A DNA stretch of 64,000 nt. Source: Owenia fusiformis. Lineage: Eukaryota; Annelida; Polychaeta; Sabellida; Oweniidae. Below are positions 4,501-40,400 of this stretch, piece by piece. Below the pieces are notes generated by a model that was given only the letters and a program-made list of their open reading frames with translations, searched no databases and was not told the DNA's origin. The stretch's first letter is position 1, and each line of letters opens with the position of its first letter. The stretch lies in contig CAIIXF020000006.1 of the NCBI GenBank assembly GCA_903813345.2, forward strand, positions 38,717,348-38,781,347, read 5' to 3'. Made by a program: the position numbers and the translations under genes.

Positions 4501-7500
4501 CTTCAAACAATCAAGTCTCATCTTTCCTTTATATCTATTATCTGAATTTATTTACATGGAAGTCCTTTGTTTCTGAAACTGTTTTCAATACTTAACATTT
4601 TCCAGGTGACTGTTTTACAAAATTATTGTGCATTGTGAATCTTCACTATCTACCTGACAGTGTTATGGTCAAAGTAGGTGGTAAAGAGAAGTCATGAATC
4701 TTTTACCTCTTATACCATCAATATGTTTTAAATCAACATGTTTACCTGAAAATAAAATGTGGTTGCAGACATAGGCGTAGCCAGGGAGTTCGATGGGTGC
4801 ACCCCCCCCCCCATAACCAATAAAAATAAGACATGAAAAAGAAGAAGAAAAGAACTTTAAAATGCTTTTTATTTGAAGCTTCTAGCTCAATTTTGAAGGA
4901 AGTTGCATCAATTTTTGTCAAATTCAAAATAAATCTTATTTTTGGCTTGTTTATTCCACAATCGCACCCCCTCACTGGAAACCAAAATTTTTTGTCGTTC
5001 GCACCCCCCCCCCTGACTGAAAGCTGGCTACGCCCCTGCACAGATGCACCCAAATGGTGTCTTATTCATAATGTAATAAATGAAATCATTGTGGTCTGTA
5101 TGTGCAGTCTATTACTCTATTTGCCTTATAATAATACATTTACTGAGTACATGTATTCTCTCCTAATATTATTTCCTAATAAATATCCAACAGCAGTTTC
5201 AAAATTATTGTATATTGTATTTTACCTGAACTTTTCTAAAATATCGTATATGGTATAAGAGTTGTGAAAAATATTGTATATGGTATAAAATGGGTGAAAA
5301 AATATTGTATATGGTATAAGAGAGTTGAAAAATATTGTATATGAATTCCCCTCATTGACATTGAAAGTTTTTTTCAATTTTTTCAATTTATTGAAATAGC
5401 GTGCCCTTTGTTTAATCTTTGTATTGGTGTTTAAATTTTCCGTACTGTGTAGTAGAATAGTTGATAAATAAAAAATGTCAACTTTGATTTGAAAATGGCG
5501 AAAAAGGGGCGTGAGGTGTCTGTAGAATAAATTGGGGGAGTTTTTTCATGCATATCGCCTATGTTTTTCATCTTTAAAACAGGAATACACTTTAAAACGT
5601 TTTTTTTACTATAAGATTGCACCATATAATCCCAAAAATTATTTCTAATTTTCAAGGATTATCCATGGATTATAACCAGGTATTTTAATATTTCTAACTT
5701 CAGAGGGCTGGGAATCATCATCTTAGTACCCCGGACAGGTTGTATGATGCAGTCGTTTTTTACTCTATATTTGCAATAGAACAACCATTCTTATTAAAAT
5801 TTTCATATTTTATTCTGGAGACAATTTCCAACATGGAAAAAATTTTTTTTAACGAAATTCCTAATTTTATGATTTTGATAGGCTTTTTTCAAAAACACTC
5901 CACTGTCAATAAAATACAGGTTTTGCTTGAACAATTAAACTTTTAACGTCATTTCAAAGATTGTCTAGTTATTGAATTTTGGCCGCCTAAAGTCTTTCCA
6001 GATGAATTTGATGCCATATTAATTATGGCTGATTATTGTTATTCATTTTTGTCATATTCAATAGGCCTAATTTTATTACAGTGCATTAGGCCAATGAAAA
6101 ACTTGTCACTCTGGGTCATGTTTCCTCTGAAAACGCACCTTTTGCTCCACTGGGTTTTTCCACTACCGTCACTCAGCATGCAAGCCGTGGCACAAAAATT
6201 GTACCATGCTTTTAAAATGTCAGGTCTCCCTGACAATTTCACGATTACATTTGACACAGCTATATTAACCTCTCTGAAGGATCTAATGCCAAGAATACTT
6301 GAAATTGGAGATTCGTAATGTTTTACTTCATTTTGGACAGTATTGAACAATTCGATCGGGTTGAACTCATGTCCGTGGACAAGAAGATTGACCTCCTCTA
6401 TCTGGGCTCAATCTAGGAAACGCTTCGCAAAACGAGACCCAGAGCAACAAGTTTTTATTGGCCTAATGCAATGTAATGATATTGAATATGACTCAAGTGA
6501 ATAACAATAATCAGCCATAATTATTAATATGGCAACAGATATATCTGGAAAGACTTTAGGCGGCCGAAAATTCAATAGCCAGACAATATTTGAAATGACG
6601 TTAAAAGTTCAATTGTTCAAGCAAAAACCTGTATTTTATTGACAGTGTAGTGTTTTTGAAAAAAGCCCGTCAAAATCATAAAATTGGGAATTTCGTTAAA
6701 ATATATTTTTTCCATGTTGGAAATTGTCTCCAGAATAAAATATGAAAATTTTAATAAGAATGGCTGTTCTATTGCAAATATAGAGTAAAAAACGACTGCA
6801 TCATACAACCTGTCCGGGGTACTAATATACACTTTATTGGGATGCGATATAAATGAAAGCAACCCAATAAGGTGTATATTAAAGATTAACCTTCCTGTTA
6901 TCTCAAAATCTGCTTAGAATCACACCATTGGATTAACATGGGAAATTCCTCCAAGAGAATATTCTAGAGATTAAAGAATTGGTGTAGTTTACACAATTTG
7001 AGAAATTATTGGCATACATGGAATCTATTTAAATCAGCATTTATATTATTCAAAACCGTCGAGCACAATGATTCCCAGCCCTCTGAAGTTTGAAAAATAA
7101 AAATACCTGGGTGTTGATCCATAGATAATTCTTGAAAATGAAACTTTTTGGGGATTATATGGTGCAATCTTATAGTCAATAAAATGTGTCAGTGTATTGT
7201 TGTTTTTAAGATGAAAAAACCAAAATGCATGAAAAAACTCCCTCGATTCATTCTACAGACAACTCGCGGTCCTTTGAATATTTGAGAAATGAAAAGCTGG
7301 CAACTCAATTTTTATTCAAGAATTTCTGAAATAAATTTTACAGTCATGACAAATAGTATATAAATGAAAAAAATATTTTCAAACTAAACATGGGGACTTG
7401 AAGATATTCAGAGTTAGTGATTCAGACCTGAATATCTGATTTTTTCAGTTGGACCTCATATGGACTGCAGTGAAGACAAGAACTTCACTGGTGCTAGAAT

Positions 7501-12181: not shown

Positions 12182-15100
12182 TCAGAGTTGACACACTGCC
12201 TCACCATCTGGTTTCGCCATATTGGAGATTGTATATGGTTTAATACCATTTTGTAGCTCATTCTCAGTCAGTTCTTCCATGCTCGGCGTAGACTGAGCAT
12301 CTAAAACAGTTCTACGGAAGGCTGGGCAAAAAGGTAGGTAATGAAAAAGTCGTTTTTTGGCTAACCAGTTAGAAATGAATGGTATGTCATAGATTTCAGC
12401 TGTTTCTTTTGATTGTGGAGATGTTGATGATAGTTTAGATGTCCACATCTCAATACCTCTTTCTTTATCAGTACCTGAAATACCCAGTCAGAAAATGTGA
12501 CTACAATATTTACTGGTAGTTTTATTCATCTCATCATGACACTGAAGGAGAAGTAGATAAGGTGGGTATTCCCAAAATGAAGAAAAAACAGTACAAATAA
12601 TAATGGTGGTCAGATACATGTAACTAAAACCAACCAAACCTACATTATTTGAAATTTTATCTTTTCGGGATACTCAAATCTTCTTTATTGGAAAAATGAG
12701 TTATGTCTTTATTTTAGTGTATATGTTGAGGAGAAATAATTGAAGTATGCCCTACCTGGTAATGTGGTAAAGTATGCCTTTTTGATATGTCTATTTAATA
12801 TAAGAAATACAGGAGGCTCTACCTGGTAATGTGTTGTCTAAGATGAACCCCACTAGTCCAGCTAAGAAGTTATTGGTGCTCAGAAGTACGTAGAACACAT
12901 TGTCTACAGTCTGAACTCCTGAAACAATGAATGAATCACTTGTCAAAGAAGTTTCTATTGTGTATTATACCATGGTCAGAGCAATATCAGGTACATGGTA
13001 GCAAGTGATAAGTCACATATTTGGGATAGGGATGATATCAGGGGTGATATTGGGATTAGAGGATGGGGGTATATATTGAAAAATTTAACATTTTTTCAAA
13101 AATGTTCTCTCGTTCAACAGAGGATTTTAAGTAGATATTGCTGACTCTCATATAATATCGTTATCCACCTGTCGGGATGATATGGGGAATATCCCTTGGA
13201 TGCTATCAATATTTCCATTGGTCACTGCGTTCAATCGGGAACTATTGATATCATCAGATGGGTATTCCCCATATCAAATCCCTCCTGGTGAATAACTTCT
13301 TCATAGAGTATTTTTTATCATGATAGATCATAATATTCAATTTGTTATTAGTTAGGAGGGAAAAAGTGAGCTCCTTTGTAATGTGTCCGATCATCAGCAT
13401 TGTTCATTTGTCTGTATGTCTGGGTGATTTTCAAGATTGCTTGCAGTGTTGTCTGCCTTTTGACAAGATATGTAATGAGATTTATGTGCTAAGAAAACGC
13501 AGTCGTCCAGTTTAAATACAAAAAATTAACCTTCTTATTCGTGTAACACGCATGAATTGATAGATTACCTGTATGTATTGATGAAGGATTTGCTTTGATC
13601 CACTGCGGGACAGTAAGACCAATGAAGAAAGAGAGTCCTATTACACAAAGGTTCCTAGAAGAGTTCAGATTGACGTACTGCAGGCTTGAGACGCCAACGG
13701 CTGTTATCATACCTAAAACAAAAAATAATAATTTCAAAGGCTAAAATTAATGACGTGATGCAAAGTGATTTGGACATGAGGATCAGAAATATCTTTAGAT
13801 CGACTGATGAAAAACTATTCGAAATTGAAATATGGCTGGCTAAAGTCTTACCAAAGAGTACGAGGAAGATTCCACCAATAACAGGGTCGGGAATGGCGAC
13901 AAACAATGCACCAAACTTTCCAAGTAAACCCAGGACTAACATGTACCCAGCAGCATAGTAAATTACACGCCTACTGCCACACTGCAAAACAACAAAGTGC
14001 ACTAATAAAGGGAAGTATCTATAATCCTGATTCTTAATCATCCTTAATAACCCCACAATCAATTCATTATGATTTGTTAACTAATATACCATTTTGTCTG
14101 AAAATATCAACGTTTGAAAAAGCTAGTCACATAGTAATATGCAGCTTACTTTTATTACCCCTATTGCTGCTTTTAAGCTAACACAACAAAAACAGATATG
14201 CAGCTTGTAGTTTACCTATGTTACCACTATTGCTAGATTTGAGCTAATACAACATAAACAGACGCAACTCTGAGTAGCTTAGATTTTACCCTTATTTCTC
14301 TTTTTGAGCTAAAACAACACAAATAGATGCAGCTAGTACCGTACCTTTGTTGCAATTATTGCTCTTTTTGAGCTAATACACCATAAGCAGATGCAGCTGT
14401 TGAGTTACTTTTATTACTATTATTGCTCTTTTCGAGCTAATGCAACATAAACAGATGCAGCTTTCAAAAAGCTTACCTTTGTTACCCCTATTGCACCTAT
14501 ATTGACTGTAGTTGATGTTGTTCCATTGCCAGTACCAAATGCCCCTGCTATCAAACACCCTAGCCCCTCAATTCCTATACCTGGAAAAATAGAAACATCA
14601 ACATGTGTATTCTGAGACAAAATAACAGCAATCAACTGAAACGCCTTTATAAGTAGAACATGCGTGTAAGATGGACACTTTTTATAGCCCTATGACTCAC
14701 TGACATATTAATCAAACCTCTATAAGCATCTACCTCTGACCTTTGGAAGGATTCTATTACATCAACAAAACTAAAGACGCCAATTGTTTCAGTGTTCTCC
14801 CATACAATATATAAAAATATCACGTAGTTTTAAATTGCACACTTAGTTCCTGAATAGTGGGGAGGGGAGCCTTAGACATTTTTCCTTTATGTATCAAATC
14901 ATATTTTGGGATATTGAGGGCTCATTGTCATAATGACGGGTTGTACTCTTCCTTTTTTAACTAACAGTGTCTTAAACACTTTCGGTCTTCCCATTAATTG
15001 TTACTAGATAGTACTTCCATATTTCAAGGTACACCATACTTATCATTAACATTATAATACATACCTCTGTTAACAGCATGTGAGGGAGGTGGGGGTGCCC

Positions 15101-18100
15101 CAGAGATTCTAGCACATGCGTAGTAATCACCCACAGACTCCACAGCTGAGGCTAGCAAACCTGCTATGATACCTATCACACTGGAGATACTCACTGTTGG
15201 TCGACCCCACTGCCCTATGTGAAAAATATGAAAAGATATAATATTTTTCAGAATGAATATAGTATGAAACTGATTAATGCCAAGATTTCATGTGCATCAA
15301 ATCAAACCATTATATCCTGCAACTTAAGATCAGATGGTTTACCTGGATATGGAAGTCTGATCCAGTCTGCATTATTCAGTACATCCATTTTAGTGTCAGT
15401 CCTCGCCTCGTATCCCCAGTGACCAGGTGTCTTAGGGAAAACATTAGTTGCAGTGAGAATACCACATATCAACCAAGTAATTACCATAGCGAGGAGCACC
15501 TGCGTCATAAAACAAGATTCAAAACGTGCCATTTCGAAGTGATACATTTGTGAAGTCAAGTAGAGGAAGGCGGGGTTCAAAGGGGCTTGTAGCCATAAGG
15601 CATAAGTATGCCATATATCAAATATATCACCATGCATGGATCATCTTTGTCATCATCATTTTTTCATTCAGTTTTATTAATTTAAAATCATTTCAAAATT
15701 CAAATAATGCACAGCCGCTATAAAGGAACTTTAGCACCATCACCGTTTTACTCTGTAGTAAAGGTAAAAGATCCATGGATGAACTTACTGGAAATGCCTG
15801 AAAGACTGGGTACCACGATATGTAACATCCTTTCTTCCTCTTAAATGAAGGGCAGGGGAACAGGATGTTCTTCATATATTGAGCAAATATTACTATCAGC
15901 ACAGCTGTTCTATAATAAATCAATCAATAAATATGAGAATTGGGTAATTTATTTTATTTCATAATAAAAACATATTTGGATACAATCTATTATAACATAT
16001 GCCCGGGGCTTCTTATCACACATTTAGGAATCTAAGCGTGTCTTCAAAACAGTCACAACTGAAATGATTCCTCTGAGAGTATTTTTCATCTACCGCAAAG
16101 CACTTTTACTTTGAACTCCCATAGGGCATTTTCAACCCATATTCTGCGTGAACCAACTTACAGTATTGCTATCCACCATTGTTTAGAGGCCAGGTTTGAC
16201 GCAGTGTTGAATAGCGCCAGCCCTAATATAGAGACAGTCGGGGAGATCACAAGTGGCCCAAAGAAACGCAACACCAATCCAACAAGCCCTGTGAATCCTA
16301 ATAAGATCTCAAATGTTGAAGCCACCATAATGGCGCCTTGAATCTGAAATAAACAAGTTGAAACGTTATATAAGGTTAGTATGTATGTAAGGTTATATTT
16401 GAAAAGACCCGGCCTTACCAAAACAGATTTTTTATGACAACAAAAGGATGAGGTTTAATGCGTTCAAAACAATGATTGACATGACTAAATTGAAAACAGA
16501 AATATTGACCTAATTTGAGGGACAGTATAAAACATAACTTGACTTATGTGTATCATGCTTTTAATATTACTACTGCTTTAATGTAATGATGTTTCTGTTT
16601 TAGCATTTCTGAAATGCAGGATAAAATACCAGATATCATGCTTCATTTTTGGGAAACCCGATATATATGTTCAAACCCAGAAGATTGAATACTGAAAAAC
16701 CTCTGCTTCACTAACCTCCCTAAGTCGAGACTGCCACATCTCAGTATAAGCGGGTGTTCCCCTTGTCACTATATTGCTAGTGTCTGTAAGGTTGACAGCT
16801 GTCTCTGAAAGAAGGGAATGTTAATCAGTATAAGCGGGTGTTCCTCCTGTCACTACATTGCTTCTGTCTGTAAGATTTGCAGCTGTATCTGAAAGAAGGG
16901 AATGTTAATCAGTATACACGGGTGTTCCCCTTGTCACTACATTGCTAGTGTCTGTTAAGTTGACAGCTGTCTCTGAAAGAAGGGAATGTTAATCAGTATA
17001 AGCAGGTATTCCCCTTGTCACTACATTACTAGTGTCTGTAAAGTTGAAAGCTGTCTCTGAAAGAAGGGAATGTTAATCAGTATACACGGGTGTTCCCCTT
17101 GTCACTATATTGCTAGTGTCTGTAAGGTTGGCAGCTGTCTCTGAAAGAAGGGAATGTTAATTAATAGTGATATTGATACATTACAAGGAACAAAATATTC
17201 TACTGGGTTACTCAGTAAGCTTGCTTACAAAGTAGGTGTGCGATACTTAATGAAAAAAATCAAAAATATGAGGAACCGTGACTGCTGTGGAGCGGAATTT
17301 GTTTTAAAATTAGCTATTATACTAGAACCATGCTATGTTTTACTCAATTCAAGTATTTGAAACTGAACCAAGTAAAAATATGTAAAAATGGAAAATGATA
17401 AAAGTGACAAAATTAAAACTAGAGAACACCGTTGGTCTCTCAATGATGTAGTTTGTCTCACTAGAGGCGTTCACTTACAGAGGTGTTCCACTTTTTTACA
17501 GGTTTTACTGTACCTGTTTAACTGTATTTAAATACAATATATGCATTGATGTTCCTCTTTGAACCCTCTCATTTTAAATCAAAGAGTTTCAGATGAAATC
17601 TTGAAAATCACTTTATCAGATTACTAAGGTCCCAATGTTGACACTCGTAAAACAAAGCGAACTCTAGAATGGTTTTATCTCTCTCCCCTATAAATGTATA
17701 AAAATTAACAATCATATGAATTTGCCTTCCCCTGAACATATGAACTTTTTTATTTACAGCTCCCCTAACTAAAATGACAATTTTTCTTTCACAGCTGTTC
17801 TCAGTTGGACACTATTCCCTACCTGGTGAAACTACTGTTGGACACCTCCACTTTGGTAGTGAGAGAATTGCCAGCGAGGGTACCATCAAGGCAAAGGTAC
17901 CTGCTTGCACTACAGGCAGCCTAAAACGCAACAAATCTTACTTTGACAATGTACTTTTATACTGTGCTTAGTGGTAATAGTTTAACTTTGATGCCGTTTC
18001 GCATTATTAGAAAATGGGTGTTCAACAAGGGTCATTGTCATATCCTACTTTATATTTGTAATTATAAAAAGGAAAGTTTGGTTGATTTCAAAAAAGTATC

Positions 18101-23529: not shown

Positions 23530-26500
23530 TCATAGTTCACACACGGCTACACCATCTGGTTTTGCCATATCCGAGATTGTATATGGTTTAATACCATTTT
23601 GTAGCTCATTCTCAGTCAGTTCTTCCATGCTTGACGTAGACTGAGTATCTGTAACAGTTCTGCGGAAGGCTGGGCAAAAAGGTAGGTAATAACAAAGTCG
23701 TTTTTTGGCTAACCAGCTTGAAATGAATGGTATGTCATAGATTTCAGCTGTTTCTTTTGATTGTGGAGATGTTGATGATAGTTGAGATGTCCACATCTCA
23801 ATACCTCTTTCTTTATCAGTACCTGAAATAACCAAACAGAAAATGTGACTACAACATTTACTTGTAGTTTTATTCATTTGATCATGACAATAAATGGGAA
23901 GAAGATAAGTTGGGGGTTCACAAAATTAAGAAAAAAAAAACAGTTCAAATATTTGTGGTCAGATAACGAAAAACAAACCAAACCTACATTAAATTAAATA
24001 TTGATCTTCTATCTTACTCAAATCGCCAATTTTCTTAATTGGAAAAATGAAGTATGCCTTTATTTCAGTATGTATGTTTAGTAGAAATAATTGAAGTAGG
24101 CCCTACCTGGTAATGTATTGTCCAAGATGAACCCCACTAGTCCAGCTAAGAAGTTATTGGTGCTCAGAAGTACATAGAACACATTGTCTACAGTCTGGAC
24201 TCCTAAAACAATGAAAGAATTGCTTGTCAAAGAAGTTTCTATTGTGTATTTACCACGGTCAGAGAAATAGGGAGGATATCAGGGATGATATTGGGATTAA
24301 AGGGATGGTATCAGGAATCATATAGATATCAACCCGGATTTTTTTTTTTTTAAATCATTTTTTTCAAAAATTTTCTCTTATTCAACCGAGGATTTTAGGT
24401 AGATATTGTTCTTGGCCATATTGGTTATTATTCACCTTTCGGGATGATATGGGGGATATCCCTTGGATGATGTCAATATTTCCCTTTGTCAATGCGTTCT
24501 ATGGGGAAATATCAAATCCCCCTGGTGAATAACTTCTTTATACAATATACAGTATTATTGATCATGATAATTCATAATAATCAATGTATTGTTAGTTACA
24601 TGAGTTATAGGAGAAAAAAGTGGGTGCCTAAGTCCATAATGTCCAAGCATCCACATTTTTCTATTGTCCGTATGTCTAGGTGATAGTTTACTTCAAGATG
24701 ACTTGCAGTCTTGTCTGCCTTTTGACAAGATATATAGTGAGATGTTTGTGCTAAGAAAACACAGTCGTCCAGTTAAAATATTGATAGATTACCTGTATGT
24801 ATTGATGAAGGATTTGCTTTGACCCACTCAGGGACGGTAAGACCAATGAAGAAAGAAAGTCCTATTACACAAAGGTTCCTAGAAGAATTTAAATCGACGT
24901 ACTGCAGGCTTGAGATCCCAACGGCTGTAATCATACCTGAAATAAAAAATAATACCCTCTGGTCAAAAACCATCTGTGCGTCGTCATGCAATGCTCATAA
25001 CTTTTAATAATGAAAATCATACAATTTCATACCTTTAGGGTTTGGGGCCCTATATGTACCAAAGTAGGTGTAAAATTTTGATAAAATATATGGAACGTTG
25101 AAAAACTAGAAGCTGGTTACCATAGGGACCCCAGAAATTTTGGCTGTGACATTTATGGAAGTTTTCCTCATTTTTGCTAATTCAATGGAATTATTTTCTC
25201 ATCTCACTTATTACATCAAACATCAATTAAACTTGCCAATCCAAATTATTGTTACAAATATTAGGCAGCATTTGATCCCAAAATTGACAAGTAGTAGCCA
25301 TTCACCCTTATTGTTTCAATCAGAGTATTTTCGAGTTGAGAACCACTGGGTATCAACTGTATCTACAGTAATACAGTAATACAGTAAAAAATGAACATTG
25401 GGATCAGAAATATCTTTAGAACAATGGATGAAAAACTATTTGAAATTGAATTGAATTCAGAAATATTGGTGAACTAAGGTCTTACCAAAGAGTACGAGAA
25501 AGATTCCACCAATAACAGGGTCAGGTATGGCGACAAATAATGCACCGAACTTTCCCAGTAGACCCAGAACCAACATGTACCCAACAGTATAGTATATCAC
25601 ACGCCTACTGCCACACTGGAAAACAACAAAGTGCACTTATAAAGGGAAGGGTCTATAAACCTGAAGGCAATTAACAGAAGCTTCATGAAGTTAAGAATTC
25701 GAAAAACCCATTGTTCTCTAACTGTGACGTCATTATATCCATGGTTACAACAATTGATTTACGAATTCGCAACCTTACCAAGTTTCTGATAATGACCCCC
25801 TGATTCATAATCACCCTTAATCACCCCAGAATCAACGGATTATGATTTGTTAAATATAAACAGACGCAGCTCTTAAATAGCTTAACTTTTAGCCTTATTG
25901 CTCTTTTTGAGCTAATACAACATAACCAGACGCAGCTCTTAAATAGCTTGCCCTTTTACCCTTATTGCTATTTTTTGAACTAATACAACACAAATAAATG
26001 CAGCTAGTACCATACCTTTGTTACCTTTATTGCTCTTTAATTTTTTGAGCTAATGTAACACAAATAGATGCAGCTTGCAACTTACCTTCGTTACCCATAT
26101 TGCTCTTTTCGAGCCAATACAACATAAGCAGATGCAGCTAGTATCTTACCTTTGTTACCCCTATTGCTCTTTTCGAGCCGAATACAACATAAACAGATGC
26201 AGCTAGTATCTTACCTATGTTACCCCTATTGCTCATTTGGAGCTAATACAACATGAAGAGATTCGGGCATATCGCAACTTACCTTTGTTACCCCTATTGC
26301 ACCTATGTTGACTGTAGCTGATGTTGTCCCATTGCCAGAGCCAAATGCTCCTGCTATCAAACACCCTAGCCCCTCAATTCCTATACCTAGACAAATAGAA
26401 AAATCAACATTTTTCGAGATGCAGTTACATCAATCTAATGAGATGCCTATATAAGTACATGCTTGTAACCTATACGTATAAGTATCTACATTTGACCTTT

Positions 26501-29500
26501 GTTTAGGATTCCATTGCATAAGTAAGAAAAGGCACTTATTGTTTCAATGTTCTCTCATATATAGTATCTTGTAGTTTTAATTGAAAAACCGCTTCCTGAA
26601 TTGTCAGGGGAGAGGTCTTAAATTATTATTTTGTTTATTGAATAATCTTCTAGGACATCAGGACATTGGAGATTCGTTTGTCTGGTTAAACTTTCCTTTT
26701 TCAAACTGTTTCTTTTCACATTTGAAGTATTTCTCCTCTTGTAGTTTCATATTCCAAGATACAGAATGCTAACCTTATGCTGGTAGGACATACCTCTGTT
26801 GACAGCATGTGAGGGAGGTGGGGGCGCCCCAGAGATTCTTGCACATGCGTAGTAATCACCCACAGACTCTACAGCTGAGGCTAGCAAACCTGCTATGATA
26901 CCTATCACACTGGAGATACTCACTGTTGGTCGACCCCACTGCCCTATGTGAGAAATATAAAAAGATGTATTTTTTTAGAATGAACATACGTTTCGAACTG
27001 ATTAATGTCTGGATTTCGTGTGCATGAAATCAAACCATTATATCATGCATCTCTAAATCAGATATGTTACCTGGATATGGAAGTCTGATCCAGTCTGCAT
27101 TATTCAGTACATCCATTTTAGTGTCAGTCCTCGCCTCGTATCCCCAGTGTCCGGGTGTCTTAGGGAACACATTAGTTACAGTGAGAATACCACATATCAA
27201 CCAAGTAATCACCATAGCGAGGAGTACCTACGTCATAAAACAAGATTCAAAACTTGCCATTACGAAGTGATGCATTTGTGAAGTCAAGAAGGGGGAGGCG
27301 GGGTTCAAAGGGGCTTGTAGACATAAGCCATAAGTATGCCATATATCAAATATATCATAATACAAAGATCATCTTGGTCATCATCATTTTTTCATTCAGT
27401 TTTATTAATTTACAATCAATTCAAAATTCAAATAATGCACTGCCGCTACTTGTATTTGTATAAAGGAACTTTAGCACCATCATCATTTTAATGTGTAGTT
27501 AAGATGAACGATCCATGGATGAACTTACTGGGAATGCCTGAAAGACTGGGTACCACGATATGTAACATCCTTTCTTCCTCTTAAATGAAGGGCAGGGGAA
27601 CAGGATGTTCTTCATGTATTGAGCAAATATTACTATCAGCACAGCTGTTCTACAAACATCAATAAATATGAGAATTGGGTAATATATTTTATTACATAAT
27701 AGTAGAATCATATTCGGATACAAAAAAACGAGTTCAAAGATTATTTTGCGGCACAATCAATTATAATACATGCTCAAGGCTTATTATCACTCATTTAGGA
27801 ATCTGTGTCTTCAAAACAGTCACAACTGAAATAATTCCTCAGAGAGTATTTTTCACAGACAACAAAGCACTCTTACTGTGAACTCCATACGGCCATTTTC
27901 AGCCCATATTCTGAGTGAACCAACTTACAGTATTGCTATCCACCATTGTTTAGAAGCCAGGTTTGACGCAGTGTTGAATAGTGCCAGCCCTAATATAGAG
28001 ACAGTCGGGGAGATCACGAGTGGCCCAAAGAAGCGCAACATTAACCCAATAAGACCTGTGAATCCTAGTAAGATCTCAAATGTTGAAGCCACCATAATGG
28101 CGCCTTGGATCTGAAATAAATAAGTTAAAACGTAGGGAATCGAACGTGTAAGGTCCATTAACAGTAATACACTTGCCAGTTGTATATTCTTTTTATATAA
28201 GGAGCTTATATTTGAAAAGACTCGGCCTGACCAAAACAGATTTTTGATGACAACAAAAGGATGAGGTTTAATGCTTTAAACAATGATTGAAATGACTAAA
28301 TCGGAAACAGAAATATTGACCATATTTTAGGGACACATAAAATATGTGATTTTGGTTGATCAAACCCAGAAGATTGAATACTGAAAAACCTCTGCTTCAC
28401 TAACCTCCCTAAGTCGTGACTGCCACATCTCAGTATAAGCGGGTGTTCCTCTTGTCACTATATTGCTAGTGTCTGTAAGGTTGACAGCTGTCTCTGAAAT
28501 AAGGGAATAGTAATAGTATAAGCAGGTGTTCCCCTTGTCACTATATTGCTCGTGTCTGTAAGGTTGACAGCTGCCACTGAAAGAAGGGAATGCAAATCGG
28601 TATAAGCAGGTGTTCCTCTTGTCACTACATTGCTAGTGTCTATAAGGTTGACAACTGTCTCTGAAAGAAGGGAATGCAAATCGGTATAAGCAGGTGTTCC
28701 TCTTGTCACTATATTGCTAGTGCCTGTAAGGTTGACAGCTGTCACTGAAAGAAGGGAATGTTAATAGTATAAGCAGGTATTCCCCTTGTCACTACATTGC
28801 TAGTGTCTGTAAGGTTGACAGCTGTCTCTGAAAGAAGGGAATATTAATAGTATAAGCAGGTATTCCCCTTGTTATTACATTTCTAGTGCCTGTATGGTTG
28901 ACTGTCACTGAAAGAAGGGAATATTAATAGTATAAGCAGGTGTTCCCCTTGTCACTATATTGCTAGTGTCTGTAACGTTGAAAACTGTCTCTGAAAGAAG
29001 AGAATGTTTATTAAAAATGATATTGATACATTACAACGAACCAAATATTCTACTGGGTTACGCAGCAAGCTTGGAAGGTGTGGTATACTTGGTGAAGCAA
29101 TTTAAAAGTATGAGGAATCGTGACTGCTATTATACCAGGATTATGCCATGTTTTACTCTATTCTACATTTGAAACTGAACCAAGTGATAATATGTAAGAA
29201 TGGCACATAAAGCCATGGGTAAAGACTAACCCTTATATACAAATTATAAAAGTGACAAAATAAAAACTAAGGAACCCCTTTGGCCGCTCAATAGTTGTAA
29301 TTTGTCACACTATAGGCTTTCACTTACAGAGGTGTTCAACTTTACAGGTTTTACTGTACCTGTTTAAGTGTGTTTAAATACAATACATGCATTTATGTTC
29401 CTTTTTGAACCCTCTCATTTTAAATCAAAGAGTTTCAGAAGAAATTCCTTACCTGGTGAAACTACTGTTGGACACCTCCACTGTGGTAGTGAGAGAATTG

Positions 29501-31982
29501 CCAGCGAGGGTACCATCAAGGCAAAGGTACCTGCTTGTACTACAGGCAGCCTAAAACGCAATAAATCTTCATTTGACAATGTACTTTTATACTGCGTTTG
29601 GTGGTAATAGTTTAACTTTGATGCTGTTTCGTATTATTAGAAAATGGGTGTTCAACAAGGGTCATTGTCATAACCTACTTTATATCAGAAAAGGATGGGT
29701 ATCGGCATGGTGAACCTTTTTAACACACGTTTCTCTTAAACCAGTTATCAAAAAAATTCTGAAAATTATACACATTGTCAATTTAATGGTCATATTTTGA
29801 ATGGTAACAATATAATTTGAAATAGATATATATATTTTTTCTCTATATTCTTTTAGAAAACCCATCGGACACTTCTATTATTGTTGGTATTATATGTTCG
29901 GAATGAAATGACATATGTTTCTAAATATTGTTATTTTACAAAGGTAAGTTTGGTTGATTTAAAAGAAGTATCTTGTTCATGAAATAAAAGGTTTATCATA
30001 GTTTATAATTTTTTGAATATATACTTTTTGTTATAACAACCAACATTTCTTTTGTACAACTATAATATTGGAAAGTCTAAGAAAATGTTGTATATGTTAT
30101 TTTGTTCAAACAGCTTCGGGAAGACATCTTATTTCATTCTCAAGAAATTGTGAAAAGGAACAAAAAATAATTGCACAAAAAAAACTGTTAACAAAAACAG
30201 TTATATAAAAAATATGTGAATCATTTCCGCATTAAATTGTCGTCAGTCAGTCAAAATTACATAGGATCGTCTTTTTAACATAATGTTTTCTATAATTGGT
30301 TTAAGAGAAAAATATTGTTGAATTTAGTTCTCCATATCGATACCAATCCTTTGCCAAATAAAAATGAAATGTATTATTACCGTACACCCAATGATACTTG
30401 TACAAGAGTTATGATTCCAGAAACAAACACAATTGTACTGATAAGTTCAGCTTTTACATTATTGTCGTCTCCAACACAGAGGGCGGGGGCCAGTGTGAAT
30501 GGTATGGTCAGTGTGGCGGTGAACATTACTAGGAAATGCTACAATAAGAGAGCATATTAAAATTATAATTTCAATGCAGAATGTCCAAAATGCTACTCCG
30601 GTAGCGTTATATTTATAAACTAAAGAGAAAAATAATTAATCTAAACACATTCTTTAAATTTTTGACAGAGTCTTATTTTGATAACATACCGTACAGAGTG
30701 AACAAGATGATAAATGAAAATGTAATAGTGCTCATGAACATTCTACTTGGCAAGGGTCATTTTAAGCTTATCACAAGGTTACCTAATCGCTGTATGTAAT
30801 ACAATACTTACCTGTAAACCGAACACAAAGCACTGTAGCCATGGTGGATTGTCCTTTACTTTAAACAATATAGTTGATTCAGTATCATCTTTCTCCTTTG
30901 ATTCCTCCACCTCTACAATCTCCACATGGCGTTCTTCCTGCTAACATACATTACAATGAATTTGATGTATGCCCGTAGACAGCTTTTGCTAGGGGTGGTG
31001 GGGGAAGGGCTCTAACTCCCAAATATTTGAGCGCAACTTTTCAAAAATATGACCAAATTTTAGTTAATTAACGCCCAGTTGGCAGTTTGTTATATGAATT
31101 GGGGAGGAGCAGATTCTCCTCCGAGAAGCGAAAAGTGTAGCTCCCACATATTTAGGAGATATCGAGGAGAGGGGGCTTGTATGATAAGACGATTTATTTA
31201 GTTATAAGTGATATAAATTTTTTCTATATATATGCATTGCCATGAAGAAACATGGTGAATTATGATGCTGGGTCACTTTTGTTCCCATTCATAGACCGAC
31301 TCCCGGACGAGAAGGGGTCAACCCAGCGTTTATAGCTTTCCTTTAGTTGCAAATACTTCCGAAAGCAAAGAAACACAGAATTTAAGTTGACGCTTCATGC
31401 TTATAAAGAGAGTAAAATTAGAAAGTAAAATTAGCTGTGGTGTCAAAATATTTACAAATGAAAAAAACATAGTAATATTCATATTAGTTTACTTATCGTC
31501 ACTAAAAACTATCAAATTACCCTATCCCTAATGACATTTATCTTGTTCTTCCAATTTTGCACCGTTTTTGAACCACTCAAAAATGTTATCATCCAGTTTT
31601 GAAGCCCATTTATATTTCAGCTCATAATGTAACTTGGGGTGATATTAAACATGGAGCAGGGTGATCCGCTCCAAATCGATTTGGCAAAAGTAATATCATT
31701 CAACTTTTTTCACTAAATTGTTTCGTATTCGCAAAGGTGTATCCATTTTGTCAATGAATCTTTTTCATGTTAGGTTACATCATTTATTTAAAATTCACTT
31801 CTAGATCTTATTATTTGCTGTCCTTTGAGGATGCGCCTATAGAGTCTCTATAGCAGAAAGTGATTAATAAAAAATGTTTGCACTTGTGTAGTCAGTTGTT
31901 AGACCACTTAACTATCATTAGTTTCTAATAAATAACGGCAAACGCAGCCTACCTTAAGCTCGAAGTTATTTTCCTCCTCCAT
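23530..31982 (-). CDS. SLC23A: SLC23 nucleobase/ascorbate transporter, copy B (14 exons, 625 aa)
   Basis: Exons in coding order: 31953-31982, 30812-30937, 30381-30538, 29453-29550, 28405-28493, 27929-28110, 27529-27649, 27071-27227, 26794-26943, 26283-26386, 25486-25615, 24793-24936, 24107-24202, 23530-23822. Every exon has the same length and phase as in copy A, and no break is seen. About 25 of 625 residues differ from copy A; ten are in the last exon, and exons 5, 7, 9 and 13 encode identical protein. The NAT signature is again [10 protein letters not shown] at 396-405, preceded by TTSAT instead of TTSTT. TM8 Glu346 and the LQH motif are kept. Introns have diverged more than exons, which suggests purifying selection on the protein. 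It is probably a working plasma-membrane transporter of the same class as copy A. Confidence 0.93.
25855..26282 (-). repeat. exon-10 donor-edge tandem array, copy B
   Basis: Six intronic units (junctions near 25882, 25948, 26014, 26083, 26147 and 26212) of 64-71 bp follow the true donor at 26282. Several keep a nearly perfect exon edge and donor, for example AATAGGGGTAACAAAGGTAA at about 26147, equal in quality to the real one. Confidence 0.88.
28494..29010 (-). repeat. exon-5 acceptor-edge tandem array, copy B
   Basis: Six intronic units of 81-84 bp (unit landmarks near 28516, 28599, 28683, 28767, 28849 and 28932) plus the exon itself. Two adjoining units are open in the exon frame with spacer DLHSLLS, giving an uninterrupted frame from the exon side through 28745. 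Each unit has its own CTTTCAG acceptor. Confidence 0.9.
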
Positions 31983-34417
31983 GTTGCTTCAAACTTCAAG
32001 TGTCTGGCCAGATTAAGGTTTAATATTCTCCCTGTGTTTCACTGTCTATTACTGTTCATATAATGACATAACTTCAACTTGTTTACTATATTTACATTTG
32101 TCAATTATCAAACCAAACACGTGGTTACTTAACTCTGGGAATGAATTAAATGTCTCGTGAGAGTCTTGTTATGCGTGTATATGTCCGTCCTTGAATTATA
32201 CCAAGAACTAGTGATTCCGGTTTTGTCTTTATATCTCAGGAAGCAGAACTCGTGGACCTTGTATGATAACTTTATTATGACAGTCACTATATTCGATAAG
32301 AAATAATTTGATCAAAGTGGACAGAAGAGAGGTCACAGACGGATAGATGGCGTGGTTTGTCGTATAGATCTATTAAGTTTCGTTGTTGAATTATAACAGA
32401 GGCAGCATATAAAAATGTGCCAAAATGACTTGAAAAGAGGCTACACAGGCCCAAATTTCTTTTTCGTTGCCTTGCAATACATTTTGTAGAGCTACCACTA
32501 CTTTATTTCAACCCACTGGGATCATGTTTCAAGTGGTGAATTAATTCAATCTGCTCTGTTTTAAATTTCAGGTTTATTTTAAGTGATTTGAAATAATGCC
32601 ACAATTAAATCACTTACCTTTTCAATGTTATGATATGTAGTGAGTTTTATTCAAGTGAAACAACGACTATATATTCATGTTTATCTATATTTATTGAAGA
32701 TTATAAAGTATATTGAAATATAAGAAAATAGTACCAGACCACTGATATTGGAATAATATATCAATACAATTCTTGGAGGTCACGTAATTGTAAAGTCAAC
32801 TATTCTATGACACATTTTTGATGGCTATACTGTTGAAACATCAACAGATAGCGCCAATACAATAAAAGGACTTGAATGTTTTAGTTATAGGTTTATAAGA
32901 GAAAAAACATTAACTCTGTAAAATTAGATTAATGTAAATTATTTGAAGCATTTACCTGTTTACACCTTCTCTCTATATACTTTATGAAAATTATAAAATG
33001 TTCAATAATTGTGTTATATAAATATGTATGTCATTCAAATATTATCTTATATATTAGACTTTGTATTATCACGTTCCATTCACGCACGTGTCTGTCTTGT
33101 AATTGTGTCGTACTCGTGGTCATCTCATAATAATACCTTATAAGGTCATATTGTTATCTCCTTTCACAAAATATTGTTGTCCCTTACAAATATACTTTTG
33201 GCCACATTCATAAAATTGCATTGCGTCATTTAAACTATAACAATATTGTGCAAAGAATCATGACTTAGCTCTATTTCAGCACAAGGGAATCTTTATAACT
33301 GAGTGAAAGCAACGGCAAAAGGTAATCCACATATCTTTGGAATTTTATTTTGAAATAATGACAATCTTTGCCTGACAAGATTATCTTAAGTTCCCTGAGG
33401 TAGAATTAAAAGTACACACTTAAAGATATATTGCAGGTTAGGGCAGGCTATTTGCCTTGTAGTGCCCTTACACCTGAATATATACAATAGTACAATACGA
33501 TGTCATCAATACAATATGATGTCACCAATACAATACAATGTCACTAATTCAATACATTGTCACTAATACAATACAAGGTCACAAATACAATATGGGGTCA
33601 CTAATACAATACAAGTCACTAATGTAACGAAAACATTTGAAAATGCCTGTATAAAAAATGTTTAAAGTCTCCATTGAAGAAAGTTATTAACCCTCAAATG
33701 GTTTTTGGGGTCCGTTTGGACGCCAGAGCACATTCTTTGCAATAATTACATCAGAAATAATTATTAAATCTACATGAAATTCGATCTAATCGTCAATTCA
33801 TGCATTTCCCTTCAGACAAAACAAATCAGATGTAAATCTCATGATGATTTTTTGTTCGACTTGATGTCAAGGAACATCACTATCACAAAATGTATATTCA
33901 AATAATATAGTGTTATATATAAATACAAAATGCTAAAAAAATCTGTCCCCGTGTTATTAGGTTTATTCATATTTTCTTGCATCTGATATAAATAGTGCAT
34001 ATATATATTATGAATGAAAGGTTATTGAATGACCTATTCGGAACTGAAATTAGAATGAAAAAAGCTTCTCTGATTGCAGGTTTAATGCAAAATATGTGCT
34101 GGGGTCCAAACCCTTTAAAGGGTGTAAATACAAAAAACAATTGAGGGTTGAATCTGCATACGTATTGTGTTTTGAAAATTTTCCTCACAAAATTGCTCAA
34201 CCTTAGATCATCTTATCTAAAGTATCAGGATAATGGAAACGTTTAAAACAGAAAACATTACTTCTAAATGCATTTTTATGCTCACATAATGATTCATCTT
34301 GTTCAGTTGATGCAATGGTCCCCCTTTACAATGGAAAGTATGCAGCCTCCTCTTATTGTGTTGACACAAACACAATAAGATGACATAATAAAAATTCCTC
34401 TTTCAGATCATGTATAC
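31983..34417. other. intergenic region B-C
   Basis: 31983-33191 is the 5' flank of gene B, paralogous to 20623-22067. From 33192 the sequence is unique and AT-rich, with a minisatellite at 33483-33620. No gene was recognised; the small minus-strand frame at 33967-34200 has no protein hallmarks. Confidence 0.5.
33483..33620. repeat. minisatellite, unit about 20 bp
   Basis: About seven imperfect copies of tcactaatacaatacaatg in tandem. It is non-coding and lies between SLC23 copies B and C. There are no unique spacers between repeats, so it is not a CRISPR-like array. Confidence 0.85.
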
Positions 34418-37400
34418 TCATTTGAGTTGAACAAATGTCACATCATTTTGTTTTGTATCATTTGAGATTGCAATTCCATTTTGAAGCTTCTCAGTCAGTT
34501 CTTCAAATTCCTGAATGCTTGATGTGGACTGAGTCTCCGAATCACTAATGAGTGACAAGGTTCTCCGAAAGACTGGGCAAAAAGGTAGGTAATAACAAAG
34601 TCGTTTTTTGGCTAACCAGTTAGAAATGAATGGTATGTCATAGATTTCAGCTGTTTCTTTTGATTGTGGAGATGTTGAGGATAGTTTAGATGTCCACATC
34701 TCAATACCTCTTTCTTTATCAGAACCTGGAATACCCAAACAGAATATGTAAATAAGGTTTATTTTTCTGGAAGTCTTGCTTCGAGCCCTTGTAATTCTCT
34801 TCACACTGCACTGGATGAGGCGATGGTTCCAAGATGACTTCATACAAGACTGCATGGATACAGCTTTATATCGTCTGAATATATTGTGTATCGTATGAAT
34901 CTTATGAATATGATGAAGTACTTATTCATGCTTAATTTCATGTGCATGCTCCTGACTAGACTTTTTAGTTCCTAATAACGTTAATTCATTCTTGAGCAGA
35001 TTTTTTCTAAGTAATTCCACCCACATTATTTACCTGTTGGAAAATGTTGGTTATATTGGGTGGAACTTCCTAGAAAAAACTTGCGCTCTGATTGAGAATC
35101 TGTTAACGTAAGTAGAACGTGTAAAGTCTTGCCAAGAGTATGCACATAAAATTAAGCATTAAAATCCTTCATTATATCCTACATCACTATAATTGCTTTG
35201 AACACCTAAAGTCTGCACCCATATATTGTGTCACTGTAAGTTGTCGATAGTTAGGCGTGTTTATTGGAAAAATAAAGTATGCCTTTTTGATATGTCTATT
35301 TAATATAAGAAATACAGTAGGCCCTACCTGGTAATGTGTTATCTAAGATGAACCCCACTAGTCCAGCTAAGAAGTTATTGGTGCTCAGAAGTACGTAGAA
35401 CACATTGTCTACAGTCTGAACTCCTGAAACAATGAAAGAATCACTTGTCAAAGAAGTTTTATGCCGTAATATATAGTATTTCAGATGTTATCAATTTCTC
35501 TATAGTTGAGAGGGATAAAGAGAGTGCGTATTTGTCCATATGTCCATCGATCTACATGTTCAATATGTGTTTTTATATCTGAGGATATTTTCGAATATAT
35601 AATAGAATTAATATAATACCTGTATTTATTGATGAAGGGTGTGCTTTGACCCACTGTGGGACTGTAAGACCAATGAAGAAAGCCAATCCTATAACACAAA
35701 GGTTCCTAGAAGAGTTCAGATTGACGTACTGGAGACTTGAGACTCCTACAGCAGTTATCATTCCTGAAACAAAGGGTTTTTAAAGTCTAAAAGTAATGAT
35801 GCAATGGAAGTAATTTGCACAGTAGGATCAAAAATATATTTAGTACAACACACAAAAAACTATTTGAAACTGAATTAAATGCAGAAATATGGATGGACTA
35901 GGGTATTACCAAAGAGTACGAGGAAGATTCCACCAATAACAGGGTCAGGTATGGCGACAAATAATGCCCCAAACTTTCCTAGCAAACCAAGTACCAACAT
36001 ATACCCAGCAGCATAGTAGATCACACGTCGACTTCCACACTACAACACAACAATTAAAGGTTTATACACGACAGAATTATATCCCTTGAACTAAGATTTG
36101 CTCCGCTTATTATTAAATGCTAGCCACCATTTAATGCAAACAATACTCAATTTAATCTCAAAAGCTCTACCCCTAAAATCTTTTTGAGCTAATACAAGAA
36201 AAACAGATGCAGACTGTAACTACCTACGTTACCCCTAGCTATTGTTCTTTTTGAGCTCGTACAACAAAAGCAGATGCAGCTAGTATTTTACCTTTGTTAC
36301 CCCTATTGCTCTTTTCGAGCCAATACAACATTAACAGATGTAGCTTGCAGTTGGGACTTACCTTTGTTACCCCTATTGCACCTATATTGACTGTAGTTGA
36401 TGTTGTCCCATTGCCAGTGCCAAATGCCCCTGCTATCAAACACCCTAGCCCCTCAATTCCTATACCTGGATAAATAGAAAAATCAACATGAATTTTCTGA
36501 GATATAGTAATGTCCGTCATATGGAATACATAAAAGTGACACATGTAAGATGAACCCTTTTCAGTCCTGTGGCCCAACGTCATTTTAATCAAACCTCTCG
36601 TGTTTACTTATTTGACTATTGAAAGGGGATCCATTATATCAGTAAGACGACACACTAATTAAAGAGATTTCACAACTTACTTATAGCATGTTTATTATTT
36701 CCGTATAATGTATAACTTATGAAGCGGCATTAATAACGTCATTACGGAGAAATTGCGATATTAGTAAGGGAAGGAGGTGTTAAACATTATTTCTTGTTTC
36801 ATTAAACCATATTCTGGAACATTCGAGGTTCATTTTCCTTTTGATTGGTTTTACTGTTCCGTTTTCTATTTCTTTAACACTGTTGGACTTTCCCATTTGG
36901 CAATTGTGCCTCCATAATTCAAGTTACATTACAACATCATACTAATCATTAAGATTATAAGACATACCTCTGTTGACGGCATGTGAGGGAGGTGGGGGTG
37001 CCCCAGACATTCTAGCACATGCGTAGTAGTCACCCACAGACTCCACAGCTGAGGCTAGCAAACCTGCTATGATACCAATCACACTGGAGATACTCACTGT
37101 AGGTCGGCCCCACTGTCCTATGTGAGATATCAGAAATGAGACAATATGTAAACTGGACAGAGTATATTACACAAAGGATGTTCTATGTCACTTTGCTTAA
37201 ACTTTTCTAAATGAAACTCAATGTGCATTAATTACATCAAACCACTCATATGTGTTACCTGGATACGGAAATCTGATCCAGTCTGCATTTTCAAGAACGG
37301 CAAGTTTTGTGTCAGTCCTTGCCTCGAACCCCCAGTGACCAGATGTCTTAGGGAGCACATTGGTTACAGTGAGAATGCCACATAGTAACCAAGTTATCAC

Positions 37401-40400
37401 CATAGCGAGGAGCACCTATGTCATAAACAAGATTCAGGCATAACTTGGGTTCAGCCCGAGTGTAGCTATAACTGTGCAAATCAAAGATATCACCATAAAA
37501 AGAGTACCTTTGTCATGATAAAAGATAAGACTAAGAGAGGACCAATTACCAAAATAATAATACTAACATAAGTTACGCTTGAGAAATTGCATTTGGTCAA
37601 TCTTTTAATTAATGTGATGCATTATCGTCATTTTGAAATCAAGTCTGTAAAACATGCACAGTGTACAATGACATAGCATATGCATAACATGACTGATGTT
37701 TTTAGTATACTGTCTCTTTGGCTTACGTTTCATCAGTTCGATTGATGGAAAACAGTTGTTTAATTAAAAATTAGTACCTTTGAAACAAACTTGATATACA
37801 AAATATAAAAATTAATCAGGGATTTTACACGGAAATAATCTAAATTAATTATGATATATATTTATCAAAAAATCGATTTCACCATTCTAGCTTAATAACC
37901 CTTACTGGGTTAAGTTTGAGATCCATGCATTAACTTACTGGAAATGCCTGAAAGACTGGGTACCACGCTACGTAACATCCTTTCTTCCTCTTGAATGAAG
38001 GGCAGGGGAACATGATGTTCTTCATGTATTGAGCAAATATTACAATCAGCACAGCTGTCCTACAAACAACCATAAACAAAACAACCACTTCACATACATA
38101 CTCTGTTTTGGATTAATTGAGATCCATATGATGAGAATTTTCATCCTAACAATGACCAATAATACATAAAATTCGTTTTTTTTATTATATTTGGTTAAAA
38201 ACATGAGATTTTCCTAAAAGAGTGGAATATAAGGTTTAATATATTTCTCAATTGTATCTACTCGTATAACCAGAGTTTGAACTCTTGTAATTGCGAGTTT
38301 ACTTTAAACAGTCACAGAATCACTGGTGCACTCACACGTTTTGAACCCATATTCTGATTGATTGAGTGAGTGAGTGAGCATACTACAGTAATGCTATCCA
38401 CCACGTGTTAAAATATTCTGTGTGAATCTACTTACAATATTACTATTAACCACGTTTTAATACATATTCTGTGTGAATCTACTTACAGTAATGCTATCCA
38501 CCACTGTTTAGAGGCAAGGCTTGATGCAGCGTTGAAAAGTGACAACCCAAGAACAGTGACAGTTGGTGCAATAACAAGCGGCCCAAAGAAACGCAGCAGT
38601 AACCCAACTAACCCTGTGAATCCTAGTAGGATCTCAAAAATCGAAGCCACCATGATAGCCCCTTGAATCTGAAATTAATAAACACAGGGGATTGAACCTG
38701 GGTAATGTAATACAAGTATTTAAGAAACAGTGTTTTTCGTCTTTTTCATTAATTGAATTGAATTGATTACAGTATTGAAAGTTCCACCTTAACCAAAACA
38801 AATTTTAAAACAACCAAAAGGATGAATAAGCTTAAATTTCAGTGCAATGATTGAGTATGTGTTAGATGACTAAACTAAAATGAATTTATCTCATTAATCC
38901 TTTTTTAAAAAAGGTTTTAATCTTAAGGGATAAACGTAGCTTACTGTGTACCATGGTTTTGTGGTACTGATATTTGAAATGGTAAAAATTAGCTATCTAC
39001 TACCCATTTCATGTTAATCTATTTCTATTTCACTGAACTATGGGTTACTATACTGACCTCTCTTAGTCGAGACTGCCACATCTCAGTATAAGCGGGTGTT
39101 CCCCTTGTCACTACATCGCTAGTGTCTGTAAGGTTTGCAGCTGTCTCTGAAAGAAGAGAATGCTAATCAGTATACACGGGTGTTCCCATTGTCACTACAT
39201 TGCTAGTGTCTGTAAAGTTGAAAGCTGTCTCTGAAGGAAGGAAATGTTAATCAGTATACACAGGTGTTCCCCCTGTCACTACATTGCTAGTGTCTGTAAG
39301 GTTGGCAGCTGTCTCTGAATGTTGAAAATCCATAATAGTGATACATTATAATTGGAGGCTATTTCTTTTGTCTGTATTCTTGATATTAAAATGACGGTTT
39401 TGAAAAGAAGTTGAACACTACACTCCAATTTTTTTGCCTGAAATTATGTATGCAGATAAATATTAAATATTCTATTAGCCTTACCATTTTGCTGACTAAA
39501 CCTATTTTGCCTGGATTTCGGGATATTGCTATAACTTGACACAAATCATTTACAAGTTGCCAAGAATCTGATCTTACATTTGACACTCAATGACCTTTCG
39601 AAGGGTCAAAACGATGAGTTTTCAAATTGAGTTTTCTGATTAAAGTCGAAGTCAAATTTGATCACAAAAGACTGACTGAGGTCTGAAAAAGTAAATATTT
39701 TAGGTAAAATATCATCTTTATCAAACTAGGTCACAACCAGGTTTTACATACATGTATATAAGCAATTGATGATCTATTAAAATGTTGTTCCAATTTTGAG
39801 ATACTGTACATCATGTATCAAGGCTCAAAACGTAAAAGGTCAAATATATAATTAGAAGTTTCTATTATATTAGTATATCACACCCTGTCAATGTCTGAAT
39901 TTTTATTGTGTCCCTTAATTCGGATTTACAACACATTTAATAAGTATATACCATTTTATGTATGCCATGCAGTTGAATGAATATGCATCCAGTTCGAAAT
40001 GACATGTTAAATTTCAAACAAACATCACTAAATAATATAAACGGAAAGTAGTTAAAACTGAGCAGAACTCGTCAATATTGACATCTTGAGCAGTGTTGAA
40101 AGGTGAACCAAGATAGGTAACCTTCTCGCAAAAAAACAATACATGACAAATTTTAAAAAAAATTATTTCAAATTGCATACGTGCCAAATGTAACGTGACT
40201 ATCACATTGATAATAATTCAAACACATATAATAGTACATAAATATAATATATCTAATAATGTAATCGACGTGTAGAATAAAATTTGCAAAATGCATATTA
40301 AAATCGTTCTTATCACAGTCAATTTTTATACTAATGTTAATTTTATACCAGGAAAGAAGAGGGTAATTCTACTAAAATCCAAATGTGCATGTTATCAGTG

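Follow-up and report, generated by a model that had tools for sequence, protein, structure and literature searches.

Why does an intron of a transporter gene carry repeated copies of the 3′ splice site at its own end, and would the splicing machinery be expected to use them? The case arose in a window of 64,000 nucleotides (the whole stretch of DNA analysed), in which three SLC23 genes, A, B and C, form a tandem trio on the minus strand about 10–12 kb apart. We conclude that the array at exon 5 of these genes is very probably a mirage-type minisatellite, mostly inert and tolerated through exon definition.

Gene B was assembled as 13 exons (E2–E14) with GT-AG introns and a single open frame of 615 amino acids free of stops, which matched mouse SVCT1 (7ytw) over residues 21–595 (E = 3e-179). 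With a full-length SVCT match and an intact frame, the host is a putative SLC23 transporter by homology. The peptide of its exon 5 aligned to a stretch of mouse SVCT1 containing the sequons NWS and NTS, just before the conserved REVQGAIM; this stretch of the SLC23 genes we take to be the glycosylated loop between TM3 and TM4. A sequence-only reading of the window had placed the duplicated part in that loop, and the alignment to the NWS/NTS stretch agrees with the placement. Exons 9 and 10, and likewise 11 and 12, seem to be fused (one match, intronless) in several SLC23 relatives (L034–L041), unlike in genes A–C.

The coordinates of the arrays and exons are given in Table 1. Tandem Repeats Finder (TRF) reported array B at 28432–29008 with a period of 83, 7.0 copies and 88% matches (score 856), which is far beyond chance and bears out the original description of a seven-unit array, consisting of six upstream copies plus the exon-5 acceptor itself. 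The TRF spans of the sister arrays were 16741–17161 (A) and 39083–39319 (C). In all three genes the repeat unit comprised 20 nt of 3′ splice site and 62–64 nt of exon 5, in keeping with the exonic length of about 64 bp first proposed; the spacing, put at 81–84 bp, is really 80–84. The distal copy of array C (39314) had a degenerate polypyrimidine tract. According to the translations of the units in A–C, the sequon N-X-T was kept in 11 of the 12 upstream copies and the twelfth read NLI, in line with the NLT noted from the start in the duplicated coding part and found in the exon. When the genome (498.3 Mb in 525 contigs) was searched at the DNA level with 28405–29010, arrays A, B and C were the only places among the matches listed, match counts in this search being lower bounds.

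Table 1. Positions of the splice-boundary arrays and of the exons to which they relate
Feature	Gene or locus	Position	Strand	Details
Intron-4 array, six upstream copies (3′ splice site and exon-5 start)	B	28494..29010	-	TRF and minus-strand parsing; first exon-like bases 28990, 28907, 28827, 28744, 28660, 28576, then exon-5 acceptor 28493; spacings 83, 80, 83, 84, 84, 83 nt
Intron-4 array, four upstream copies	A	16805..17161	-	First exon-like bases 16888, 16972, 17056, 17140; spacing 84 nt each
Intron-4 array, two upstream copies	C	39147..39334	-	First exon-like bases 39230, 39314; spacing 84 nt
Coding exons E2-E14	B	23530..30937	-	Span of the 13 assembled exons
Exon 5	B	28493..28405 (89 nt)	-	First 62-64 nt recur in the repeat unit
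Exon 5	A	16716..16804	-	Splice-junction frame reading
Exon 5	C	39058..39146	-	Splice-junction frame reading
Micro-exon candidate in exon-5 array	A	17030-17056 (27 nt)	-	Donor CTA/GTAATG, 4.0 bits
Exon-10 donor array	B	25856..26300	-	~64-nt units running into intron 10, with the last ~18 nt of exon 10 and its 5′ splice site
Exon 10	B	26386-26283	-	Gene B exon assembly
Exon-10 donor array	A	14146..14462	-	Exon 10 at 14580-14477
Exon-10 donor array	C	36179..36345	-	Exon 10 at 36465-36362
Exon-6 donor array	C (only, among A-C)	38384..38509	-	51-nt units, 2.5 copies; exon 6 at 38668-38487
Exon-6 donor array	L035 (g2)	6124-7149		~21 copies of a 48-nt unit
Exon-6 donor array	L036 (g3)	3126-3535		Three copies of a 136-nt unit
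Array with gapped relation to exon-8 acceptor region	L042	7589-8291		~Eight 87-nt units
Array repeating exon-7 acceptor without exon	L037	4496-4987		~Ten 51-nt units

The first proposal for a function was that splicing to a distal acceptor lengthens the extracellular loop by whole repeats, with more sequons. Besides the conservation of the sequon, this idea draws on the fact that the exonic part of every unit, when read on from exon 4, meets no stop before it ends, and that the unit acceptors score like real ones (see below). When exon 4 was joined by script to each acceptor of A–C and read to the exon-5 donor, the three proximal acceptors gave open frames, but all 12 upstream acceptors led to at least one stop, so that none was open through exon 5. 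The linkers of A and C carry in-frame stops (ACT GAT TAA, once ACT GAT TAG); of gene B's linkers, two read through (GAT TTG CAT), but the exon-adjacent unit is 83 nt long, which shifts the frame. Since every upstream acceptor brings a premature stop, the loop is not lengthened by distal acceptors, and whole-repeat extension is excluded for the present sequence. We also paired the upstream acceptors with internal GTs (n = 101); the donor reached at least 2 bits in five pairs, only one of which was in frame and open. This pair, the 27-nt micro-exon candidate of array A, would need a donor that ranks near the 2nd percentile among real ones, and we regard a loop-length switch as extremely improbable. 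The micro-exon, if it were spliced in, would contribute a second sequon.

The strength of the splice sites was determined with a matrix built on acceptors from 13 SLC23 genes; 112 sites were gathered, and those of exon 5 in A–C were kept out of the matrix. The upstream acceptors scored 2.1–7.8 bits, corresponding to the 5th–37th percentile of real ones, and the proximal exon-5 acceptors 5.8 (A), 7.6 (B) and 7.3 bits (C), while intronic AGs elsewhere in A–C (n = 545, intron 4 left out) had a median of −3.1, with 2.2% reaching the lower quartile of the real sites. The intron is indeed lined with candidate acceptors, as had been suggested, the upstream scores falling inside the range of real acceptors. 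In array A, three of the four upstream acceptors had exactly the score of the proximal acceptor and the remaining one a higher score; in B and C the proximal acceptor was the top-scoring one, by margins of 0.1 and 3.5 bits, respectively. On the donor side, the best GT of each array scored 4.0 (A), 3.1 (B) and 2.3 bits (C), about the 2nd percentile or lower of a reference set of 98 donors of SLC23 genes; the genuine exon-5 donor of gene C is weak as well (2.7 bits). The proximal copy stands out by having the remainder of exon 5 and the donor behind it, which makes exon definition the likely means by which the proximal acceptor would be picked. Only the copy joined to the tail of the exon and to its donor would work; the other copies present acceptor signals without a good donor, and exon definition would be expected to skip them.

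A transcript that did use an upstream acceptor would meet a premature stop and could be expected to undergo nonsense-mediated decay, which raises the question of whether the array is kept for that effect. To look for constraint, we compared the units with one another. Unit B2, which has a 3-nt deletion, was misaligned in a run with 15 units, and the comparison was hence repeated with 14 units without it. The minimum numbers of changes at codon positions 1, 2 and 3 were 7, 8 and 10 in the 14 units (20 columns each), with a pN/pS of 0.58, or 0.60 for the intronic units alone; with B2 included, the changes were 9, 10 and 14 and the pN/pS 0.64 (intronic units, 0.68). These values suggest that the units may be under little coding constraint at most, leaving room for a weak constraint or for an exchange of sequence between units and exon. 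The bases TTCAG before the cut were invariant in 15/15 units, and in array A all 20 bases before the cut were identical in 5/5 units while the exonic part varied. Such invariance could be a sign of constraint, the numbers being small, and it is not proof of it, since so few changes have occurred.

A regulatory reading would have the upstream acceptors partly used, the resulting stops causing decay and thereby tuning transporter dosage. The stops from all 12 upstream acceptors, the score ties in gene A and the retention of the array in three paralogs speak for it; it is at odds with the want of a good internal donor in the units, with the top scores of the proximal acceptors of B and C, with the unit comparisons, which gave no clear constraint, and with the lancelet arrays discussed below, which are reported without a change in mRNA (PMC3087553, PMC3902484). 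Weighing these points, we consider poison splicing of this kind quite unlikely, and return to an array that is mostly inert.

The junctions between units provided information on the origin of the array. All six linkers of A and C join the position 64 nt into the exon to the position 20 nt before the cut in the intron, with the junction ACTGA-TTAAC in five of the six and ACTGA-TTAGC in the remaining one, and the linkers of gene B have the same type of junction minus one base or with other changes. A common breakpoint in A, B and C implies either that the array arose once, ahead of the gene duplications, or that it was passed from gene to gene. Since the sister arrays are built on the same breakpoint, the exon-5 array most likely predates the triplication of the SLC23 genes. 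At 476 third positions the genes differed at 48 (A–B), 85 (A–C) and 98 sites (B–C), and the exonic parts of the units within array A differed by up to 21%; judged by this internal divergence against the 48 of 476 third positions between A and B, the array is not evidently younger than the A–B split. We propose that, in the ancestor of A, B and C, a short tandem duplication captured the intron-4/exon-5 boundary (20 nt plus 64 nt), and that the array later expanded and contracted, with slippage or unequal exchange as the presumed mechanism, until it reached the present 4 (A), 6 (B) and 2 (C) upstream copies.

Exchange could also have involved the exon, in which case the intronic copies would act as a reservoir that feeds variants of the loop into exon 5 through unequal crossing-over or conversion. 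A tree of the units (84 columns) placed gene C's genuine exon 5 with unit A4 (support 83/81), both having a GCA codon, and gene C has the fewer copies that contraction would leave. This is, however, one moderately supported fork, no branch of the tree reaching the program's mark of strong support, and the repeated part of exon 5 is 98% alike in A and B despite the variant units adjoining it. On this weak tree, clustering by gene label was absent for A and C (500 of 500 shuffles as low) and partial for B (20 of 500). A reservoir is in our view very improbable. We would call it unlikely, too, that the array is active in the combined sense, with partial upstream use among 3–7 comparable acceptors setting SLC23 dosage and copy–exon exchange renewing the loop.

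Other boundaries of the SLC23 genes carried arrays as well. The exon-10 arrays of A, B and C repeat, in 64-nt units, the end of the exon with its donor (GCAATAGGGGTAACAAAG/GTAAG, the slash marking the cut) downstream into intron 10. They mirror the exon-5 array, it being here the 5′ splice site that is repeated downstream. In genes A, B and C these arrays held two, four and one distal GTs, respectively, at or above the 10th percentile of real donors, fewer than the TRF copies. At least one stop followed from all the distal donors examined, a non-exhaustive set picked by score or string match: seven at exon 10 (two in A, four in B and one in C), three GTs after exon 6 of gene C, and 15 and two donors in L035 and L036, respectively. 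No array of period at least 25 was detected at a score of 80 in the SLC23 members g1, g5, g6 and g9. Two tandem repeats of other kinds were seen in passing: one of 66 nt at 2015–2215 (22 codons, coiled-coil-like if translated), present also in L047, the neighbouring stretch (2244–2371), and a 19-nt array of seven copies at 33491–33623, between genes B and C.

A preference of such arrays for splice boundaries was looked for by bases and by events. In 50-nt windows at score 20, a second copy nearby was found for 13 of 211 boundary windows (6%) vs 696 of 3876 intron windows (18%), which speaks against the idea that splice sites seed minisatellites on a per-base scale. Counting arrays instead, a strict interval rule applied to the 13 SLC23 genes gave 7 of 21 arrays spanning a boundary, with 3.16 expected. 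After merging the A, B and C arrays by hand, 6 of 17 spanned a boundary (at most 2.72 expected, P = 0.034), and 9 of 17 spanned one or lay no more than 20 nt from it (4.2 expected, P = 0.008), the thresholds of this per-array test having been chosen after seeing the data. Among the six spanning arrays, that at g8 exon 8 matches its exon with gaps only, and g4 exon 7, where the acceptor is repeated without any exon, was left out of the spanning count; the exon-8 donor of gene C was set 1 nt off in the boundary-window and per-array counts. In three SLC6 regions, none of four arrays of period at least 25 spanned a boundary, one of the four being judged from match coordinates only. Taken together, there is a mild excess by events and none by bases, and splice sites are not established as preferred seeds of minisatellites.

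Tandem arrays of mutually exclusive exons of the Dscam type have repeated exon-like units with acceptors within an intron, and in this the SLC23 intron resembles them. The SLC23 units differ in having no good donors and in stopping 25 nt short of the exon's end, and for these two reasons they do not resemble cassette exons. Nor do the copies each bring a donor of their own, as those of a mutually exclusive array would, the best GT of each array standing at about the 2nd percentile or lower. Gao and Lynch (2009) reportedly dealt with internal gene duplication accompanied by intron creation. A potato gene is reported to have gained an intron by tandem duplication (PMC4974935). As far as these descriptions go, the duplications take in splice signals, as the SLC23 arrays do, but at the SLC23 genes no new intron was seen and the extra copies remain inside the existing intron.

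The closest known systems are the mirages of lancelets. In the globin genes they are minisatellite-like repeats in which an intron's 3′ end is duplicated in tandem together with the start of the following exon, or in which the 3′ border of an exon is so duplicated; the units measure 10–160 bp, and an earlier case was known from Adh3. RT-PCR suggests that splicing is undisturbed, and mirages have been proposed as a model of intron gain and discussed as possibly general in cephalochordates (PMC3087553). Mirages in PGBD5 and troponin C are mentioned in a second paper (PMC3902484). In the exon-5 arrays of A, B and C, too, the unit lies across an exon–intron boundary, and both boundary types are represented, by the exon-5 acceptor (A–C), the exon-10 donor (A–C) and the exon-6 donor (C, L035 and L036). 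Boundary-spanning tandem units at 3′ and 5′ sites are thus a likeness to the mirages of Adh3, the globins BflGb6 and BflGb9, troponin C and PGBD5 (PMC3087553, PMC3902484). On the same footing, the units are of similar size (10–160 bp in the published mirages and 48–136 in the SLC23 arrays) and identity (81–100% in BflGb6 and 79–98% in the SLC23 exonic part, unit B2 left out), and in both systems many units keep AG or GT, as do 12/12 of the upstream exon-5 units for AG, and copy number varies, as it does between the three paralogs.

The sequence-only reading knew of no description of such an array for SLC23. In the literature searched, which lacks most subscription journals, we found none for annelids, for SLC23 or for introns generally other than in lancelets, where the kind of array is known (PMC3087553, PMC3902484). 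Pfam PF16915 (Eryth_link_C) had three matches in the host genome, of 38.1, 30.7 and 28.4 bits (cut-off 27), and joining two of the matched places into one query gave a match to haemoglobin linker 1 (22jw; E = 3.5e-8), the third place alone giving only E = 0.029. This haemoglobin linker family is presumably annelid-specific, so that the host is likely an annelid. Neither COX1 nor the mollusc haemocyanin family gave a match, the latter without a hit in any genome that could serve as a control. Since the genome that harbours the arrays encodes annelid-type haemoglobin linkers, mirages apparently occur beyond lancelets and seem not to be confined to them, and the mirage minisatellite would, as far as we could find, be new for the host lineage. 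Mirages at several boundaries of one gene family in an annelid-type genome would make the phenomenon wider than lancelets, and the sets of SLC23 paralogs would make it possible to follow how duplicated splice sites expand, decay and are spliced. They also provide a natural experiment on spliceosomal choice among up to seven similar acceptors. The SLC23 arrays are set apart from the lancelet mirages by their SLC23 host, by a non-lancelet genome and by one array that is common to three paralogs.
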